From: Gammaproteobacteria bacterium
GTDB taxonomy: Bacteria; Pseudomonadota; Gammaproteobacteria; Arenicellales; Arenicellaceae
Reading direction: 5' to 3'
Assembly (NCBI GenBank): GCA_022447525.1
Contig: JAKVBA010000003.1
Span: 1 to 43,335, forward strand
Length of the DNA stretch: 43,335 nt
Notes under the pieces: model-generated
Databases searched by the model: none
What the model saw: the letters and a program-made list of their open reading frames with translations, nothing else
Told to the model about the DNA's origin: nothing
Position numbers and translations under genes: made by a program
Shown: in pieces, positions 588 through 10,592 of the stretch
Layout: every line of letters begins with the position of its first letter
How positions within the stretch are numbered: the first letter of the stretch is position 1

Positions 588-2039
588 TTAATCTCGCCAA
601 AATGTGGCTGTAAAAAGGACTAGAAGAGTAAACAACTCTAAGCGACCAAGTAGCATTGCAAAAGAGAGAATCCACTTGGCTGCGTCATTTATCTGCGCAT
701 AATTATCTGCTACCAGTCCAAGACCTGGGCCTAAATTATTTAAGCAAGCTGCCGCAGCAGAAAAAGCGGTGATCCAATCTAGGCCAACTAAGCACAATGA
801 AAACCCAGTGACGGCGAAACTGAGCATATACATTGAAAAGAAAGCCATCACGGTATTGATGATTTTCTCACTGATGACTTGACCTCCTGTTTTAATCGAC
901 AGCACCGCGTTGGGGTGAACTAGTCTCACTATTTCCTTTCGTCCCTGTTTGTACATTAGTTGAATCCGCATGACTTTCATGCCGCCTGCGGTCGAGCCAG
1001 CGCATCCTCCCATGAAACTGAACAGTATCAACATTACCGGTAATGCCCCGGGCCACCAGTCAAAACCGCCCGCCGTAAACCCGGTTGTCGTAAAAATCGA
1101 AATCATATGGAATAGTCCAGATCTCAATGCAGCTAGATTCGAATCAAAAACGTTTTGACTCAGTAAAAGTATGACCGTAAACAGTGAAGCACCTAGCATT
1201 ACTATTAGAAAAAAACGATATTCACTATCGCCTAAATATGGATTGATACTTTTTCGTCTCCATGACAGGAAATGTAGGGAAAAATTCGCTGAGGCGATCA
1301 GCATAAAGATCATCGCGATACTTTCAATCAAGGCGCTGTCAAAGTAACCTAGGCTAGCATCGTGTGTTGAAAATCCGCCTATGGCTACGGTGGAGAACGA
1401 ATGGCCGATTGCGTCAAATAGGCTCATTCCCGCTGCCCAATAGGCAAGCATACAAGCCGCAGTAAGACCCAGATAGATATACCATAGCGCCTTTGCGCTC
1501 TCGGTGATGCGCGGGGTTAGTTTGGTGTCTTTCATCGGGCCTGGAGTCTCGGCTCGATAAAGCTGCATGCCTCCTACCCCGAGCATGGGCATGATTGCCA
1601 CGGCTAATACGACGATACCCATGCCTCCTAACCATTGTAGCTGTTGCCGATAGTAAAGAGTTGATGCAGGAAGCTGATCTAGATTCACCAGAATCGTTCC
1701 ACCGGTGGTGGTGAGCCCTGACATTGATTCAAAAAAGGCATCGGTAACACTTAGTGAGTTGGCGCTTGAAAAAATAAATGGTAGAGCCCCAAAGGTGGCT
1801 AGAACCGTCCAAAATAGAACCACGACCAAAAATCCATCGCGGTAACGAAGGTCTTTCCTCAGTTTTCGATTGGGAGCCCAAAGAATAAGACCAGTAGCTA
1901 AGGTCACTGAGAAGGAAATAACAAATGGAGCCGAGTTCCCATCTTCGTATAAAACTGAGACCAATAAGGGAGTTAAGTGTGTAACACTAAACATCCCGAG
2001 TAATACGCCGAGTATTTTTGCGACTGTTTGGTAATGCAT
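588..2039 (-). CDS. trkH: Trk system potassium uptake membrane protein TrkH
   Basis: The potassium-translocating subunit of the Trk system, an inner-membrane protein of 483 residues with many hydrophobic segments. The four pore-loop (selectivity filter) signatures of the TrkH/KtrB superfamily are visible in order: TTTGGT near residues 110-115, AIGGFST near 219-225, TTTGFTAG near 317-324 and NNLGPG near 434-439. Length matches TrkH. It lies 21 bases downstream of trkA, which encodes its cytoplasmic gating partner, and is the last gene of the def-to-trkH operon. The Shine-Dalgarno sequence before the ATG is weak, so translation may be coupled to trkA. No truncation is seen. Confidence 0.95.
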   Translation of the reverse strand: MHYQTVAKILGVLLGMFSVTHLTPLLVSVLYEDGNSAPFVISFSVTLATGLILWAPNRKLRKDLRYRDGFLVVVLFWTVLATFGALPFIFSSANSLSVTDAFFESMSGLTTTGGTILVNLDQLPASTLYYRQQLQWLGGMGIVVLAVAIMPMLGVGGMQLYRAETPGPMKDTKLTPRITESAKALWYIYLGLTAACMLAYWAAGMSLFDAIGHSFSTVAIGGFSTHDASLGYFDSALIESIAMIFMLIASANFSLHFLSWRRKSINPYLGDSEYRFFLIVMLGASLFTVILLLSQNVFDSNLAALRSGLFHMISIFTTTGFTAGGFDWWPGALPVMLILFSFMGGCAGSTAGGMKVMRIQLMYKQGRKEIVRLVHPNAVLSIKTGGQVISEKIINTVMAFFSMYMLSFAVTGFSLCLVGLDWITAFSAAAACLNNLGPGLGLVADNYAQINDAAKWILSFAMLLGRLELFTLLVLFTATFWRD

Positions 2040-2060: not shown

Positions 2061-3440
2061 CTAGATAAAAGTGACCCCTACTTGAAAAAGTGCTTCGACA
2101 TCGCTAATACATGATTTGTTATCCATAAAAACGACCACATGGTCTTCTGGCTCAATCACGGTGTCTACATTAGGAATGATTACTTCGCCGTCCCTGACTA
2201 TTGCTCCAATACCAGTGCCGGCGGGGAATGGTATCTCTCTAACACCTCGTCCTATCACTTTAGATGAATTGGCATCTCCGTGAGCTATTGCCTCGATAGC
2301 TTCTGCTTTACCACGTCTGAGTGAATGCACTGCAACCACATCGCCTCTGCGGATGTGTGCTAGAACACTGCCTATGGTTGCAACTCTTGGAGACACAATA
2401 ACATTGATGTCTTTATGATCTAGGTGTTCAACATACGCTGGCTTATTAACAAGTGCCATTACTCTTTTGGCACCCAGTCGTTTTGCTAAATTTGCCGAGA
2501 GAATATTGATTTCATCTTTTTCGGTAACTGCGCAAAAGACATCGGCGTTCTCAATATTTTCCTGCAGTAATAGGCCTGCATCGGCCGCATCGCCATTAAG
2601 TACAACGGTATTGTTAACCATATCGGCGATTTTATCTGCTCGTTTGGGGTTGTACTCGATTAACTTGACGCTGTAACCCTTACGTTCCAGGCCTCGGGCT
2701 AAATTGAGCCCGATATTACCACCGCCGGCAATAAAAACTCTTCTGGTTTTATTTGTCTCGCCACGCATTTCTTGCATTACCTTGGCGATGTGTTCTTTGG
2801 CTGCGACAAAAAACACTTCATCGTTCACCTGAATTTCTGTCTCAGATTTGGGGGTAATTACTTCTCCGTCTCGATAGATTGCCGCAACTCTAGTTTCAAT
2901 AGATGGCATATGAGACTTAAGATCCGATAGTGGAGAATTTATCAGGGCTCCACCCTCGACCGCTTTGACGCCGACTAGTTGCACAAGACCATCGGCAAAA
3001 TCTAGAACTTGTAGCGCTCCTTGAAATTCTATCAGTCGAGTGATGTGGTCCCTGACAATGACTTCAGGAGAGATCACTACATCGACATAGAAGCCTGATT
3101 CATGATTAAAGAGCTCTTTGTTATTCAGGTATTCTTTCGATCTGAGTCTCGCTATTTTAGTTGGCGTCGAGAAAAAGGCTTCCGCGATTTGGCAAGCTAC
3201 AAGATTTACCTCGTCATTATTAGTGACAGCGAGTATCAAAGAGGCATCCTCGGCTCCTGCGGCGCGAAGTACTGACGGATGCGCAGCGTTTCCCGCGACA
3301 GTGCGGATATCAAGGCGATTTTGCAATTGTTGTAACGTACGTTTATCGATATCTACAATTGTTACGTCATTTTCCTCGCCAACAAGTACCTCGGCAATCG
3401 AAATACCAACTTGACTAGCCCCAAGAATAAGGATCTTCAT
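2061..3440 (-). CDS. trkA: Trk system potassium transporter TrkA (NAD-binding regulator)
   Basis: The cytoplasmic regulatory subunit that binds NAD(H) and gates TrkH. At 459 residues it is close to the 458 of E. coli TrkA. It shows the duplicated RCK layout: an N-terminal Rossmann fold with GASQVG near residue 7, a first RCK_C domain, then a second Rossmann fold with AGGGNIG near the middle, and a second RCK_C domain ending in the usual EPEDHVVVF-like segment. It lies 32 bases after ntrX and 21 bases before trkH. In enteric bacteria trkA follows def-fmt-rsmB directly; here the ntrYX pair and DUF4390 lie between. Identity is secure. Confidence 0.97.
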   Translation of the reverse strand: MKILILGASQVGISIAEVLVGEENDVTIVDIDKRTLQQLQNRLDIRTVAGNAAHPSVLRAAGAEDASLILAVTNNDEVNLVACQIAEAFFSTPTKIARLRSKEYLNNKELFNHESGFYVDVVISPEVIVRDHITRLIEFQGALQVLDFADGLVQLVGVKAVEGGALINSPLSDLKSHMPSIETRVAAIYRDGEVITPKSETEIQVNDEVFFVAAKEHIAKVMQEMRGETNKTRRVFIAGGGNIGLNLARGLERKGYSVKLIEYNPKRADKIADMVNNTVVLNGDAADAGLLLQENIENADVFCAVTEKDEINILSANLAKRLGAKRVMALVNKPAYVEHLDHKDINVIVSPRVATIGSVLAHIRRGDVVAVHSLRRGKAEAIEAIAHGDANSSKVIGRGVREIPFPAGTGIGAIVRDGEVIIPNVDTVIEPEDHVVVFMDNKSCISDVEALFQVGVTFI

Positions 3441-3472: not shown

Positions 3473-4858
3473 TCATGTTGCTGTACCTTTGGTATTGAGG
3501 CCTAAACTCTTTAGCTTACGGTAAAGATGAGTGCGTTCAAGGCCAATTTTTTTAGCCAAAGCACTGACATTGCCATCAACCGTTTGTAAATGATGGCTAA
3601 GGTACGATTTTTCGAATGATTCCTTAGCGGAGCGCATGTCATGGCCGAAATAGTCTGGCACGCTGCTGGAACTCTGTTCTTTTTCGATATTAGCGTCGTC
3701 ACCCACGGCACGTTTTACATGCTCAAGATCAATTTCACTCTCCCTGTTTAATATCATCAACCTCTGAACTATATTTTGTAATTGACGAACGTTGCCCGGC
3801 CAGTGATAGTCATTCAGCCACTGTAAAGCCTCCTGAGTGACTTTGGGTGATGGCGTACTGGTCCTCGTGGCCATATCTTGTAAAAACATGGCAATCAGTT
3901 CTGGCAGATCTTGTTTGCGCTGCCTTAGAGGCGGGACTTCGATCGGAATTACGTTTAGATGATAGTACAAGTCCTCTCGAAAGAGCCCTGAGCTAACGGC
4001 CTTTTGTGGATTGCCACTGGTCGTCACGATCACTCGGACATCCAGTTCAACATATTGGGATCCGCCAAGTCGTAGAAATTGCCTGTCTTGCAGTGCACTA
4101 AAGAGCTGATTTTGCGTATCGGCAGTTAAATCAAGCACCTCATTGATGAATAAAGTCCCGCCTTTTGCGGCTTCGAACCTACCCATGGTTATCTTGCTGC
4201 CCTTTTCACTCCCAAAAAGGGCTTGAGGAACGTTTTCTGATGGCATTGCGGCTAAGTTAAGCTCGACAAAGGCATGTTTTTGTCTAGGACTATTTTCATG
4301 AACATGCTTAGCCACAAGATGTTTTCCTGTCCCTGCCTCACCGGTAATAAATACCCAGCTATCGGTGGGGCCAAGCAATTGCACTTGACGCATTAGTTCA
4401 CGACTCGCGTCACTGTTTGCAATCATTAGATCGTTGTTGCTGAGGCGCGATTTCAGCTCTTGGTTCTCTGAGCGCAGCGAAGCGTTCTCCAAACCTCTCT
4501 CCACACTCAGAAGTAGTTTGCCCGTGGAAAGCGGTTTCTCTAAAAAGTCATAGGCTCCGAGGCGCACAGCCTCCACCGCATTTTCGACCGTTCCATGCCC
4601 CGAGATCATAATCACCGGAGTGGTTTTCAATAGGTCTTTTTCTACCCAGCTTTTGAGCACACTGATCCCATCTTCGCCCGGCATCCATATGTCCAGTAGA
4701 ACTAAATTCGGTTTAACTTCTCTGAATTGAATTCTAGCTTGCTCTGCATCCTCAGCTAAGCTAACGATGTAGCCTTCATCTTGCAAAATGTCTTGCAGAA
4801 TGTCCCTTATATCGGGTTCGTCATCAACAATTAGAATGTGTGGAGGATTGGCTGCCAT
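3473..4858 (-). CDS. ntrX: NtrX-like response regulator with degenerate sigma-54 AAA+ domain
   Basis: A 461-residue three-domain regulator partnered with the upstream kinase. A receiver domain spans about 1-125 with phospho-acceptor Asp56 in NLVLLD. A central AAA+ domain spans about 145-370 with Walker A GEAGTGKH at 173-180. A Fis-type helix-turn-helix lies near 429-455. The AAA+ domain is degenerate. Where sigma-54 activators have GAFTGA the sequence reads GSKITMG at 220-226. Walker B is LFINE, with Asn239 replacing the Asp. The second arginine finger in FREDLYYRLNV is His300 here, while Arg294 is kept. The protein should still bind DNA and accept phosphate, but it is unlikely to remodel sigma-54 polymerase. 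It starts 11 bases after ntrY. NtrX as family name is secure; direct sigma-54 activation is doubtful. Confidence 0.88.
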   Translation of the reverse strand: MAANPPHILIVDDEPDIRDILQDILQDEGYIVSLAEDAEQARIQFREVKPNLVLLDIWMPGEDGISVLKSWVEKDLLKTTPVIMISGHGTVENAVEAVRLGAYDFLEKPLSTGKLLLSVERGLENASLRSENQELKSRLSNNDLMIANSDASRELMRQVQLLGPTDSWVFITGEAGTGKHLVAKHVHENSPRQKHAFVELNLAAMPSENVPQALFGSEKGSKITMGRFEAAKGGTLFINEVLDLTADTQNQLFSALQDRQFLRLGGSQYVELDVRVIVTTSGNPQKAVSSGLFREDLYYHLNVIPIEVPPLRQRKQDLPELIAMFLQDMATRTSTPSPKVTQEALQWLNDYHWPGNVRQLQNIVQRLMILNRESEIDLEHVKRAVGDDANIEKEQSSSSVPDYFGHDMRSAKESFEKSYLSHHLQTVDGNVSALAKKIGLERTHLYRKLKSLGLNTKGTAT

Positions 4859-4869
4859 AACTCAAAGCG

Positions 4870-7113
4870 TTAGCTAACTATTTCGGACTTTACGGCATTT
4901 TGACTTCGATTGCCACGGTAGGTTTGTAGAGCGTTGATCGGCAGCCTCAGGTGCATTGCCGCGCCGCCTAATTTACTATTTCTCGCCCAGACTGAACCGC
5001 TATGCTCTTCGACAATACGCTTGACGATGGCCAAACCTAAGCCTGAGCCTTTAGCTTTTGAACTCACATATGGATCAAATAGAGATTCTCGGATTTCCTC
5101 AGGTATACCGGGGCCGTTATCTTGAATAACCAGATCTATGTACTGGCCAGTCACCTGAGCCGCAGTACTCGTGGTCATAATAATTTTTGGATCTTCAGTC
5201 TCGTTACCATCAATCGCATGGAGTGCATTGATTATTAGATTATTCAAAACCTGTCTGAGCGCAGATGCATTTGCTTTTATCTCGGGTAAGTCTTCATCAA
5301 GATCAAGCTTTAGATCGACAGTGGTAAAGCTTGATGCGTGCAGCTCTACCACATCTCGGATCAGTTGGTTTAAGTGCAAGGGAGCCAATTTAGCTCTTAC
5401 AGGTTGAGCATAACTAGAGAAGGCATTCACCATTTCTTTCATAGACTCTACCTGATGAACGATGGTGCGTGTGCTTCTCTCGAGCATTTCTAGGTTTTCA
5501 TCCCTAACTTGACACGATAGTTTGTTCTTGATGCGCTCGGCTGACAATTGAATTGGTGTTAGTGGGTTTTTAATTTCATGAGCAAGTCGCCTAGCTACTT
5601 CCCCCCAAGCGGCATCGCGTTGAGCCTGAATTAAGTTAGTGACATCGTCAAAAACCACCAGATATGTCTTGGAATTACCGTTGGCGGAAGCTTGTTTGAG
5701 CAGGTTTCCCCTGACGATTAGCATTTGCCGACCGTGATGGCCTAGTAGGTTTATTTCGTCTTGCCAATGGTCTCTGTTTGATGATATTCCATTGTTGACT
5801 ACCTCAAAAAACCGACCACTGTGGTCTTTGTTTTTTGCCAGACTGTCGATCGAAAGGCCAATGGCATCGCTTAAGTTCATTCCTAAAATTTCAGCTGCGG
5901 CACTGTTTGCCATTTCGAGATTTCTGTCACCGCTGAAGGAAAAAACCCCTGATGATAAGTTGGTCAATACGGCTTCTAAATGACCCTTTTGCTGTTCTGT
6001 TTCTGCTTGACTTGCTAATGCCGTTTGCTGAGCTTCTTGAATCTTTTGGCTCATGTTGTTGAAGGAGCCGGTTAAAATCCCAAGCTCATCCCTGGTGGTG
6101 ATCGGTAGTTGAGCACCATAATTGCCCTCAGCGATATTTTGAGTCCCAGCGGCTAAATTCGAAATAGGTGCTACTAATCTTCTGGAAACATAAACGGCAG
6201 TCAAAATGGAGAATAGTAGGCTGACTAGCGATATAAGACTGAGTGTCACCATCAAGCTGAATTTAAGAGGCCCTCTAGCAAAAACCATTTGTTTGTATTG
6301 CTTATTGGCTGACTCAACGCTATTGGCTAGGGTTGCGTATCTTAACGGTAAGATTTTTATTGCTTGCAGCCCATAAAACTGACGACCAACTTCATTTAGA
6401 GTAATGGGGGCAACTACTCTAAATTGTTGAATATCTTTCGTAAGTGTTTCTAATTCTGTATACGTTTGATTTAAACGCAGTTGATTAAAGGCTTCCTCCG
6501 AAGGGGTGCTTGGTAGTATGTTGGCGGCATTTTCTCTGGAGAACGCGATGACTCGTCCATCGTCGGCATACAAAGATAGCTCGGAATAACCTTCTACTTC
6601 TCTAATATTGTCAAGCGTTCTAAGAACTCCACCTGCCGGAAGGGCTTCTCGTAGATTGTTCGCATAATTCTGAACATCCGCGGTAATTTCTTCTTTAAGC
6701 CCTTCAAGCGCCGATTGGCTTAACAGTAAAGAGTCTTGGACCGTTTGCTCAATTCTAACATCGAACCAGCCGTCAACACCTTTGTTTAGGAATTGGATTG
6801 AAAAATAGTAGAGTAGGGAAAAAGGGATTAGGGTAAGAAATAGTACAATGACGACGAGCTTGGTGGCTAATCGTGAGCCCATTTCTCCTCTCACGAATTG
6901 GCGCAATAAGCTGAATAAATTTATCGCAAGAAAAAGAGAAAGAATAACAATGCCACTGATTCCTAGAGATGTGACCCAAAACTGGACCTCCCCTAAACTA
7001 TCATCGCTAAATGATCTCACGATCAGAGCGCATAGCGCGAATAAAAGACTGGTTCCGATCAGTGTTATCGGAATTGGATGAGTCAGAGCTTTGACTAGTT
7101 TGTGCTTATCCAT
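4870..7113 (-). CDS. ntrY: NtrY-like sensor histidine kinase
   Basis: A membrane histidine kinase of about 747 residues. Three hydrophobic helices occupy roughly residues 10-110, followed by an extracytoplasmic sensor region to about 280 and a further membrane helix. After these come a HAMP linker near 310-365, a PAS segment near 375-490, a HisKA box with phospho-acceptor His512 in RRLAHEIKNP, and a HATPase_c domain with NLIINALHAI, DNGPGIPEE and GSGLGLAIVK. I place the start at the ATG at 7113 because GGGTGGGG lies just upstream; an ATG at 7140 would add nine residues. The start overlaps the end of the DUF4390 gene by 19 bases, which suggests translational coupling. Its substrate is the adjacent NtrX-like regulator. 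The signal it senses is unknown. Confidence 0.92.
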   Translation of the reverse strand: MDKHKLVKALTHPIPITLIGTSLLFALCALIVRSFSDDSLGEVQFWVTSLGISGIVILSLFLAINLFSLLRQFVRGEMGSRLATKLVVIVLFLTLIPFSLLYYFSIQFLNKGVDGWFDVRIEQTVQDSLLLSQSALEGLKEEITADVQNYANNLREALPAGGVLRTLDNIREVEGYSELSLYADDGRVIAFSRENAANILPSTPSEEAFNQLRLNQTYTELETLTKDIQQFRVVAPITLNEVGRQFYGLQAIKILPLRYATLANSVESANKQYKQMVFARGPLKFSLMVTLSLISLVSLLFSILTAVYVSRRLVAPISNLAAGTQNIAEGNYGAQLPITTRDELGILTGSFNNMSQKIQEAQQTALASQAETEQQKGHLEAVLTNLSSGVFSFSGDRNLEMANSAAAEILGMNLSDAIGLSIDSLAKNKDHSGRFFEVVNNGISSNRDHWQDEINLLGHHGRQMLIVRGNLLKQASANGNSKTYLVVFDDVTNLIQAQRDAAWGEVARRLAHEIKNPLTPIQLSAERIKNKLSCQVRDENLEMLERSTRTIVHQVESMKEMVNAFSSYAQPVRAKLAPLHLNQLIRDVVELHASSFTTVDLKLDLDEDLPEIKANASALRQVLNNLIINALHAIDGNETEDPKIIMTTSTAAQVTGQYIDLVIQDNGPGIPEEIRESLFDPYVSSKAKGSGLGLAIVKRIVEEHSGSVWARNSKLGGAAMHLRLPINALQTYRGNRSQNAVKSEIVS

Positions 7114-7643
7114 TGGCCCCACCCAGAGTCGTAATCCCATTGAGATGATGCAAATGCAGTCATACGTAATGGGGCTGGTAATTCGGTTTTGCTTAGGTAA
7201 ACCCTGAGCACTAGGCTAGGCTTGCCCTCAGAGTAGTCGATAAAATGTCTTTTAATAACTTTAGCAACTTGAATGACGCTCATCGAGCTGGATCTGAAGA
7301 TTTTAGGCGTCGGGCTACCGTTTTCGTAAAGATGGTAGCGGTCTGAAAGTGCGTGTTTGCTGATAACAAATCTATGCGTCTCTTTTTGTGTTTTCCAGTT
7401 AAGAAATCCCCATTGTTTAGGTACAGCGAATTCGCTAATAAAAGTTAAGCTGACGCCATTATCAATAGCGGATAGCGCTTCTTCCGACAAAGTTATGCTG
7501 ATTTCATTGTCTTGGGGTGAAATGCCAAAGCTAGCCGTGGCAACTGCATGCGCAATGACGGCTGATGAAAACACCATAGTCATGACGCATGTCTTTGTTA
7601 AATTACGCAACAGTGATGGCAAGCTTGGTTTTCGAACAGGCAT
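7095..7643 (-). CDS. DUF4390 domain-containing protein
   Basis: A 182-residue exported protein. The N-terminus has basic residues and then a hydrophobic stretch ending in AHAVATA, a probable Sec signal. The rest matches the layout of DUF4390: a beta-rich central part, a LSDRYHLYENG-like strand, and a conserved C-terminus ending SQWDYDSGWGQW. DUF4390 genes typically sit between rsmB and ntrY in gammaproteobacteria, exactly as here. The gene overlaps ntrY by 19 bases. The close linkage suggests an envelope protein working with the NtrY sensor, but this is inference and no biochemical role is known to me. Confidence 0.85.
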   Translation of the reverse strand: MPVRKPSLPSLLRNLTKTCVMTMVFSSAVIAHAVATASFGISPQDNEISITLSEEALSAIDNGVSLTFISEFAVPKQWGFLNWKTQKETHRFVISKHALSDRYHLYENGSPTPKIFRSSSMSVIQVAKVIKRHFIDYSEGKPSLVLRVYLSKTELPAPLRMTAFASSQWDYDSGWGQWISTN

Positions 7644-7679: not shown

Positions 7680-8978
7680 TTAACACTTTTGCAGTAAACA
7701 ATAATAAAATCCATCCATATTGTGCACTCCCGGAAGTGTTTGTAGTCCGTGTTTGAGTTCCAGTGCGTTGGGGTGTTTGACGTCGCAAATAATCAGATTG
7801 TTCTTTTTGGCGATGAATTGCTCGATTTGATTCTCATTTTCAGAGGGAAGAATTGAGCAAGTCATGTAAAGTAACTTCCCCTGCGGTTTTAGCAGTCCCC
7901 AAAGGTTTTCCAGTAAAGCCGCTTGAGATCGATTGAGAGCGGCTATGTCGCTTGGCCTTCTATGATGTTTTATATCAGGATGTCTTCTGATAACCCCTAA
8001 TCCCGAGCAGGGCGAATCAACCAATATTCGATCATAACCGTCTTCGGGTGCAGGCCAGCTTACTTCGGAGGAGGCATCACCGACAAAGCGCTCGGCCTTC
8101 AAGTTCAGTCGCCTTAGCGTTTCGTCAAGCTGTTGGCAACGCGCCTCCGAAATATCCACTGCGTGTAATAAACCGGTATTGTCTAGGCGCTCTAAAATAT
8201 GCGCTGTTTTGCCGCCTGGAGCTGCGCAGGCGTCGAGAATATGATGACCATGGCGGATGTCTAATATGTCAGCGGCAAGTTGTGCAGCGGTGTCTTGAAC
8301 TGAGCACCATCCGAGGTCGAAGCCAGGTAATAGTGAAACATTTACCGCTTTATCTAAGATGATGCCATCCTGTGAATACGGGTCCGAATTAGCCGCGATA
8401 CCCACGTCCTTGAGTTGGTTTAGGTAGTCATCTCTTGTATTAAAGCCTCGATTGACTCTAATACACATAGGTGGTCTTTGATTATTTGCGTGCTGGATGG
8501 CGAGGGCGTGATTCGGCCAAGCTTTGGATATTTCCTCTCGTAGCCATTTTGGGTGGCTGGCCGAAGTGGCATCGGCAACCTCTGCAGGGTTTCGTTGATA
8601 GTTACGAAGGCATCCATTGACTAATTTTTTCGCCCAGATCTTATTCAGTTGTTTGCAGGCTCCAACGGTCTCTGCAACGGCTGCGTGTTTGGCGGTCTGA
8701 AGATGACGTAATTGATAAAAGCCCACCAACAGAAGAAAGTGAATAACCCTATCTTTTTTACGTATAGGCGTCTTAAGATATTTGCTTGCTACAGAGTCTA
8801 ATTCGCCATACCAACGACAAACCCCGTAAACGACTTCTTGCACAAATCCTTTGTCTTTCGGATTTGGTCTGTATTGTGAGACGTAATCGGCAAGTGCCCC
8901 ATCTAACGATCTGCCTTGGTCAATGACTTGCCAGCAGATTTTTGCTGAGTGAGCACGAGTATTCAGTGATTTGGCCAT
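7680..8978 (-). CDS. rsmB: 16S rRNA (cytosine-967-C5)-methyltransferase RsmB
   Basis: Methylates C967 of 16S rRNA using S-adenosylmethionine. The 432-residue protein has an N-terminal NusB-like helical domain (about 1-130) and a C-terminal RNA m5C methyltransferase domain. Visible motifs are the SAM-binding DACAAPGGKT at 249-258, motif IV DSPCSG with Cys324, and motif VI YMTCS with Cys374. These are the two cysteines of the catalytic cycle. It begins 3 bases after the fmt stop codon and is followed after 36 bases by DUF4390. The fmt-rsmB pairing is conserved widely in proteobacteria. Full length, no oddities. Confidence 0.96.
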   Translation of the reverse strand: MAKSLNTRAHSAKICWQVIDQGRSLDGALADYVSQYRPNPKDKGFVQEVVYGVCRWYGELDSVASKYLKTPIRKKDRVIHFLLLVGFYQLRHLQTAKHAAVAETVGACKQLNKIWAKKLVNGCLRNYQRNPAEVADATSASHPKWLREEISKAWPNHALAIQHANNQRPPMCIRVNRGFNTRDDYLNQLKDVGIAANSDPYSQDGIILDKAVNVSLLPGFDLGWCSVQDTAAQLAADILDIRHGHHILDACAAPGGKTAHILERLDNTGLLHAVDISEARCQQLDETLRRLNLKAERFVGDASSEVSWPAPEDGYDRILVDSPCSGLGVIRRHPDIKHHRRPSDIAALNRSQAALLENLWGLLKPQGKLLYMTCSILPSENENQIEQFIAKKNNLIICDVKHPNALELKHGLQTLPGVHNMDGFYYCLLQKC

Positions 8979-10468: not shown

Positions 10469-10592
10469 ACTTAGACCTTCTATTCTCTCGTTTGATTACA
10501 GTTTCTAAAGTAAATAACGTAAACTATATTCTACATTATTGACGTAACATGCTAAATTAGCTGTGATTATTGAAAAAATGCAGCTATCATGA

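Follow-up and report, generated by a model that had tools for sequence, protein, structure and literature searches.

An NtrX-family regulator encoded beside trkAH with a GAFTGA-less loop and an altered ATPase site

The ntrX gene, its protein and its neighbours

The window analysed here, a stretch of 43,335 nucleotides from a gammaproteobacterium related to Arenicella, encodes an NtrX-family response regulator that has the domain order of a sigma-54 activator and changes at key sites of its AAA+ domain. The locus raises the question of whether such a protein can still remodel sigma-54 polymerase and, if not, for what its AAA+ domain is kept. The gene, ntrX (3473..4858, minus strand; 461 aa), was assigned from its open reading frame, Pfam matches and a tree, and the plus-strand reading of the same interval contains many stops. 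Pfam recognises receiver, Sigma54_activat, AAA lid and HTH_8 domains; the NCBIfam model NF051870 (NtrX) scores 460.6 bits, below its cut-off of 600, yet is the top-scoring model, with NtrC second at 347.8. Among named genomes, the closest are MAGs that carry the label Arenicella (80 and 76% identity). A PADLOC match of RtcR/PspF type was set aside, as it reflects common AAA+ and HTH domains.

The initial annotation held that GAFTGA, the Walker B Asp and the second arginine finger were changed and that receiver Asp56 and the Fis HTH were retained; codon-by-codon re-reading confirmed the former, and re-translation and Pfam the latter. On the minus strand, the receiver domain (residues 8-119; 4502..4837) keeps the phospho-acceptor D56 together with D13, S86 and K108, and the Walker A motif GEAGTGKH (residues 173-180; 4319..4342) keeps Lys179. 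The L1 loop is shortened to FGSEKGSKITMG (residues 215-226; 4181..4216), which replaces FGxxKGAFTGA... and is modelled as a short beta hairpin; the L1 stretch as a whole has 14 residues, against 19 in canonical activators. In the Walker B motif GGTLFINEV (residues 233-241; 4136..4162), Asp is replaced by Asn239 (4142-4144) and Glu240 is kept, and in the arginine finger motif FREDLYYHL (residues 293-301; 3956..3982), R294 is kept and the second finger is His300 (3959-3961). Sensor II R358 is also retained, as is a Fis-type HTH (HTH_8 in Pfam, residues 413-450; 3509..3622). Exact-codon re-translation reproduces D56, Walker A, the FGSEKGSKITMG loop, N239 and H300. With no GAFTGA in L1, NE at Walker B and R294/H300 as fingers, the protein falls, by sequence, outside bEBP group 1. 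Sequencing error was considered and is very unlikely, because Asn239 and His300 recur in same-genus orthologs from separate genome assemblies (17/17 and 3/17, respectively). All 17 orthologs of the genus keep the catalytic Glu240, and all 17 have Ser281 in place of the sensor I Asn, at a site that is variable in canonical activators too (Asn in 10/28).

Eight genes follow one another on the same strand in the 5'->3' order def, fmt, rsmB, the DUF4390 gene, ntrY, ntrX, trkA and trkH. The plrS-like ntrY (4870..7140, minus) encodes a histidine kinase with HAMP, PAS, HisKA (H521 in HEIKNP) and HATPase domains and ends 11 bp upstream of ntrX; a Pfam search of NtrY detected no PDC domain. Next to ntrY lies the gene for a protein (7095..7643, minus; PF14334, 66.2 bits) with the domain of Bordetella PlrP (PMC13001219), and rsmB (7680..8978, minus; RsmB model, above cut-off) lies upstream of it, an arrangement that characterises PlrP-associated NtrYX systems. 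On the other side of ntrX are trkA (2061..3440, minus) and trkH (588..2039, minus), both identified by Pfam. This order is that of the Bordetella PlrSR locus, rsmB-plrP-plrS-plrR-trkA-trkH, for which PMC13001219 describes the DUF4390 protein as a third component, reports from genetics that PlrP restrains the phosphatase of the NtrY-type PlrS via its PDC domain, and states that the cluster is not one operon. Seventy own-class loci with both flanks covered, out of 75 picked from the class sample described below, were compared: an adjacent ntrY is found in 69, rsmB in 64 and plrP in 42, the last by tblastn of limited reach.

Three changes of different age

NtrX orthologs were gathered from the organism's own genus, order, class and phylum, with the best hit taken per locus. 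The 241 distinct own-class NtrX that were aligned comprise 17 from the genus, 22 from the order, 125 from the class (distinct rows, part of the 215 own-class genomes with NtrX) and 77 from named genome contigs; because these 77 were chosen by similarity to the query NtrX, own-class fractions are not unbiased. Comparison sets were 32 NtrX from elsewhere in the phylum, outside the class, and 28 canonical activators, the latter drawn from the source genome and six own-class NtrX genomes lacking an rpoN hit. Two short rows (L215 and L227), duplicates over residues 20-360 and non-NtrX hits from the source genome were removed before counting; a long, odd row (L340) was counted and was omitted from alignment A1 (76 rows). 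Within the genus, 17 of the 18 genomes searched have an NtrX ortholog, the exception being G010, which is 85% complete.

GAFTGA occurs in none of the 273 NtrX (0/241 own-class, 0/32 other-class), whereas 22/28 canonical activators have it and 6/28 have a one-letter variant. The L1 stretch is 14 residues long in 211/241 own-class NtrX, 15-19 in the 32 from other classes and 19 in 28/28 canonical activators. A 92-row tree, made by a quick method with the trait columns omitted and with long activator branches, separates NtrX from six canonical activators (SH-aLRT 99) and recovers the genus (100). As judged from these alignments, the loss of GAFTGA belongs to the whole NtrX family. The view that this NtrX has lost the sigma-54 machinery therefore stands in that the changes are real and fails in that GAFTGA loss is family-wide, not special to this protein, and the initial suggestion that the loop is absent from some alphaproteobacterial NtrX was right and too modest. 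Absence of the motif is already in print for Caulobacter NtrX (PMC10274813), and a table in PMC5744179 gives an NtrX without it for the gammaproteobacterium Thioalkalivibrio; the sampled Acidithiobacillus NtrX proteins also lack it. A looser pattern picks up one NtrX, L157 (GAFPGA), which together with L158 (GAFGEA), likewise from another class, preserves loop remnants that fit descent from a GAFTGA activator. Residue 86 is Ser in 273/273 NtrX versus Thr in 22/28 canonical activators, and Ser86 is a possible signature of the NtrX family.

The two ATPase-site changes are younger in their spread. Asn239 unites the genus with L030, which belongs to a neighbouring genus (support 92), but two further members of the family, L034 and L273, do not have it; His300 is confined within the genus to the query, L010 and L011 (support 100), and His at the second finger is also widespread elsewhere in the class. 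On this tree, Asn239 arose inside the source genome's family and His300 in a three-genome subclade. Because GAFTGA loss, Asn239 and His300 differ in their spread, the three changes date from different times. The alignment with NtrX and NtrC families that the initial annotation had proposed thus gives three ranges (the whole family, the genus plus L030, and three genomes within the genus), and the idea of one loss special to this protein is not borne out. In the genus, the first finger is Ser or Leu in 13/17, with the second finger then kept; first or second (His, 3/17) is replaced, never both, and L019 retains both.

Of the own-class NtrX, 102/241 keep the Walker B Asp, 144/241 the Walker B Glu, 85/241 the second finger and 203/241 the first, while 220/241 keep the Walker A Lys and 212/241 the sensor II Arg. 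Receiver residues D13, D56, S86 and K108 are invariant (241/241 own-class, 273/273 of all NtrX). Other-class NtrX have the Walker B Asp, both finger Arg and the Walker A Lys in 32/32 and the Glu in 23/32, and canonical activators have all five in 28/28. The complete set of K179, D239, E240, R294 and R300 is found in 43/241 own-class NtrX, 23/32 from other classes and 28/28 canonical activators, so loss at the ATPase site is not universal, 43 own-class proteins having escaped it. On a FastTree tree of 301 rows, in which loss and gain are indistinguishable, the own-class rows require at least 25 changes at D239, 19 at R300, 15 at R294 and 12 at K179. Losses of the Walker B Asp and of the fingers showed no detectable coupling (four comparisons, few informative pairs; median sign-test p = 1). 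Read together, the counts and the tree indicate that the own-class hydrolysis site has been eroded repeatedly while the Walker A Lys and the receiver residues hold; the Walker A Lys persists in 124/139 own-class NtrX that lost the Walker B Asp. Since 21/241 own-class NtrX lost the Walker A Lys, ATP binding is not essential everywhere, and nucleotide binding may have been lost in some lineages of the class. Among the 125 class rows, 18 have Arg in place of Lys179 and 3 have some other residue. A literature search, which was not exhaustive, found no publication on NtrX proteins that have lost Walker B or finger residues; this repeated erosion is the fresh part of our findings, GAFTGA loss being already known.

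What the AAA+ domain is kept for

The NtrC of the same genome (L371), which scores over the NtrC cut-off and adjoins an NtrB over its own cut-off, has the same domain order as NtrX at 35% identity but, unlike NtrX, preserves GAFTGA, Walker B DE and the two fingers. With its orthologs from 15 more genomes of the genus it formed a control set of 16, in which Walker A and both fingers are present in 16/16, Walker B DE in 15/16 (DD in L359) and a GAFTGA-type loop in 16/16 (13 GAFTGA; one-letter variants in L357, L359 and L369). The AAA+ domain is the most conserved domain of NtrC in the genus (0.905). In NtrX that place is taken by the receiver, at 0.844 versus 0.808 mean identity for AAA+, and the lid is lowest (0.582). 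Six genus pairs give pN of 0.011-0.097 against pS of 0.77-0.89 for the NtrX AAA+ domain, silent sites being saturated or close to it, and by this comparison the AAA+ core is under strong purifying selection. In the structural model (pLDDT 92.1; pTM 0.67, which makes domain placement less certain) the AAA+ fold is kept, with short strands at the former L1. Conservation, the model and the retention of Walker A favour a nucleotide-binding or structural role for the domain over a motor or a ruin.

The six best PDB matches of the model are chains of Brucella NtrX. The Brucella abortus protein (PDB 5m7n/5m7o/5m7p) is the best match in both sequence and fold, and like the NtrX here it has a REC-AAA+-HTH arrangement without GAFTGA. 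By their PDB entry titles, the Brucella structures are with ATP and with ADP. The Brucella protein keeps the Walker B Asp and both arginine fingers, whereas Asn239 and His300 are found here. Brucella NtrX, in work attributed to Fernandez in 2017, reportedly has no ATPase activity. A second comparison is offered by NtrC of Caulobacter and Rhodobacter capsulatus, in which the GAFTGA loop is deleted, sigma-70-type promoters are used and phospho-Asp is needed (PMC10274813). Unlike the NtrX here, Caulobacter NtrC pairs with NtrB and keeps and needs its Walker B Asp, which is described as vital for hydrolysis, not for binding, and as required by this GAFTGA-less protein for growth on ammonium (PMC10274813); GAFTGA loss alone does not, therefore, make hydrolysis dispensable. 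As to DNA, phosphorylated S. meliloti NtrX is described as binding promoters with both activating and repressing effects (PMC9223101), and PMC7240162 likewise describes phospho-NtrX as binding promoters that it activates or represses.

Our direct observations are the altered residues, how widely each is shared and how old each is relative to the others, the constraint on the AAA+ domain, the intact NtrC control and the gene cluster. The reading that we prefer, with a probability of roughly 0.8, is that this NtrX is a DNA-binding regulator controlled by phosphorylation and independent of sigma-54, its AAA+ domain being a probable ATP-binding scaffold. NtrX is predicted to work with NtrY, which, probably tuned by the DUF4390/PlrP-like protein in a role like that of Bordetella PlrP, would phosphorylate Asp56. 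Phospho-NtrX would bind DNA via the Fis-type HTH and repress or activate what are probably sigma-70-type promoters, depending on position, and would not remodel sigma-54 polymerase. The AAA+ domain would still fold and, with Walker A kept, probably bind ATP, would no longer hydrolyse it, and would serve as a dimerisation or nucleotide-binding scaffold. That the protein is not a sigma-54 activator, as initially proposed, agrees with the missing GAFTGA, the changed hydrolysis site and a genus NtrC intact save for small variants, and the proposal of a phosphorylation-driven DNA-binding regulator paired with NtrY is likewise supported.

A bolder proposal, which we would sooner bet against than for, is that own-class NtrX is a pseudo-ATPase in the making, with the AAA+ domain kept, once GAFTGA had gone, as a phospho-gated, non-turnover ATP/ADP module, hydrolysis residues lost repeatedly and in no order, and a graded series leading towards AAA+-less beta-proteobacterial NtrX; such a module, encoded beside TrkA, may report adenylate state to a K+/envelope regulon. 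TrkA is regulated by ADP/ATP. In beta-proteobacterial NtrX the AAA+ domain is said to be missing altogether (PMC13001219), and here it is kept in catalytically changed form. That account of the beta proteins, the poorly conserved lid and the frequent catalytic changes without detectable coupling would also suit a domain decaying without a role, in a protein of which only REC and HTH matter, but we consider such decay unlikely because the core is held by strong purifying selection and high mean identity in the genus, and because the Walker A Lys so often outlasts the Walker B Asp.

Potassium uptake, candidate promoters and sigma-54

In the 70 own-class loci, trkA follows ntrX in 54 and trkH does so in 50, and trkA follows in 16/16 same-genus loci; the own-class fractions exceed the 27% and 23% given for trkA and trkH among 198 PlrS homologs (PMC13001219), although the two sets differ. 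A link between NtrX and trkAH is plausible from this gene order. We doubt, however, that NtrX is a dedicated regulator of K+ uptake via trkAH: 16/70 loci have no trkA after ntrX, adjacency does not make a gene a target, the NtrX targets in print are genes of the envelope and the cell cycle (PMC7240162, PMC9223101), and in Bordetella the loss of trkAH is described as not reproducing the persistence defect that deleting plrS causes in mice (PMC13001219). Nor were NtrX site motifs clearly enriched upstream of cluster genes; the published motifs CAAN2-5TTG and GCAN9TGC, taken from alpha NtrX, were sought in the genus upstream of def, plrP, ntrX and trkA (eight tests), the closest result being CAAN2-5TTG at trkA, with 4 matches versus 1.5 expected and as many in 16/200 first-order Markov resamplings.

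Two other places in the cluster drew attention. The 3' end of ntrY (codons 742-756; 4873..4917, minus) has the top synonymous conservation in the genus among the eight cluster genes (ratio 1.54, z 4.4, 2944 overlapping windows), a signal that is only suggestive because runner-up windows are close (the ntrY 5' end overlapping the DUF4390 gene, z 4.1; rsmB 383-398, 3.9; the def start, 3.4) and z is not a probability. Bordetella plrS is described as holding the stronger internal promoter at its 3' end (PMC13001219), and by analogy the ntrY 3' end is suggestive of a candidate internal promoter or operator. Upstream of def, at 10510-10559 (minus), the block TTTAGYATGTTACGNNAACAATGTAGAATAYAGTTTACGTTAT is conserved, judged by eye, in most same-genus loci. 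It is an imperfect inverted repeat flanking a -10-like TAGAAT and is perhaps a candidate operator-promoter heading the cluster; its sequence is divergent in L252 and L256, and those relatives from the order that the comparison shows are without it. A relaxed form of the dyad matched 16 rows in 12 of the 18 same-genus genomes, with no match in the source genome, and the shared dyad sequence occurs at one place each in 10 genomes, 8 of these upstream of def (positions in G006 and G010 are unplaced). The dyad was rejected as a regulon site, since a reversed-pattern control gave 8 hits and 6 rows were unshared.

Absence of sigma-54 does not account for the loss, as rpoN and an intact NtrC are both in the source genome. 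Among 370 own-class genomes, NtrX is present in 215 and rpoN in 309, and a sigma-54 hit was obtained in 209 of the 215 NtrX genomes. Of the remaining six, five hold six to nine Sigma54_activat matches above 200 bits besides NtrX, so their rpoN absences are probably assembly gaps, and an argument for sigma-54 independence from these genomes was dropped; G097, 99% complete and without an rpoN hit, has two Sigma54_activat matches. A second sigma-54 family, searched in all six, gave no match in any. Outside the class, 23/168 NtrX genomes lack a hit to the one sigma-54 family searched (three are below 1.5 Mb), a co-occurrence that supports, without proving, NtrX function without sigma-54. These genomes (G457, G482, G494, G571, G690, G700 and 17 more) are natural systems in which to study NtrX in the absence of sigma-54. 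The proposed look for -24/-12 promoters was carried out within the window, where such matches are at chance level (46 versus 37.9 expected; 15/100 shuffles had as many) and were not taken as sigma-54 promoters. A residual sigma-54 activator, with weak hydrolysis and sigma-54 contact, perhaps in a mixed hexamer with NtrC, would be at home in a genome with rpoN and intact NtrC and in a class where rpoN so regularly accompanies NtrX, and could draw on the retained Glu240, R294 and sensor II R358, but is highly improbable given a family devoid of GAFTGA, chance-level promoter matches in the window and the other-class NtrX genomes without a sigma-54 hit.

These results bear on how the family is annotated. 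Annotations tend to present NtrX as a nitrogen regulator and to place it with the sigma-54 activators; for Acidithiobacillia, for example, one paper infers that, within the set of such activators, it has a nitrogen role like that of NtrC (PMC12194929). With GAFTGA in 0/273 NtrX, sigma-54 regulons inferred through NtrX, such as those of Acidithiobacillia, are doubtful. The uncoupled and repeated loss of the fingers and the Walker B Asp, against a largely preserved Walker A, provides many natural variants for the study of post-motor roles of AAA+ domains.
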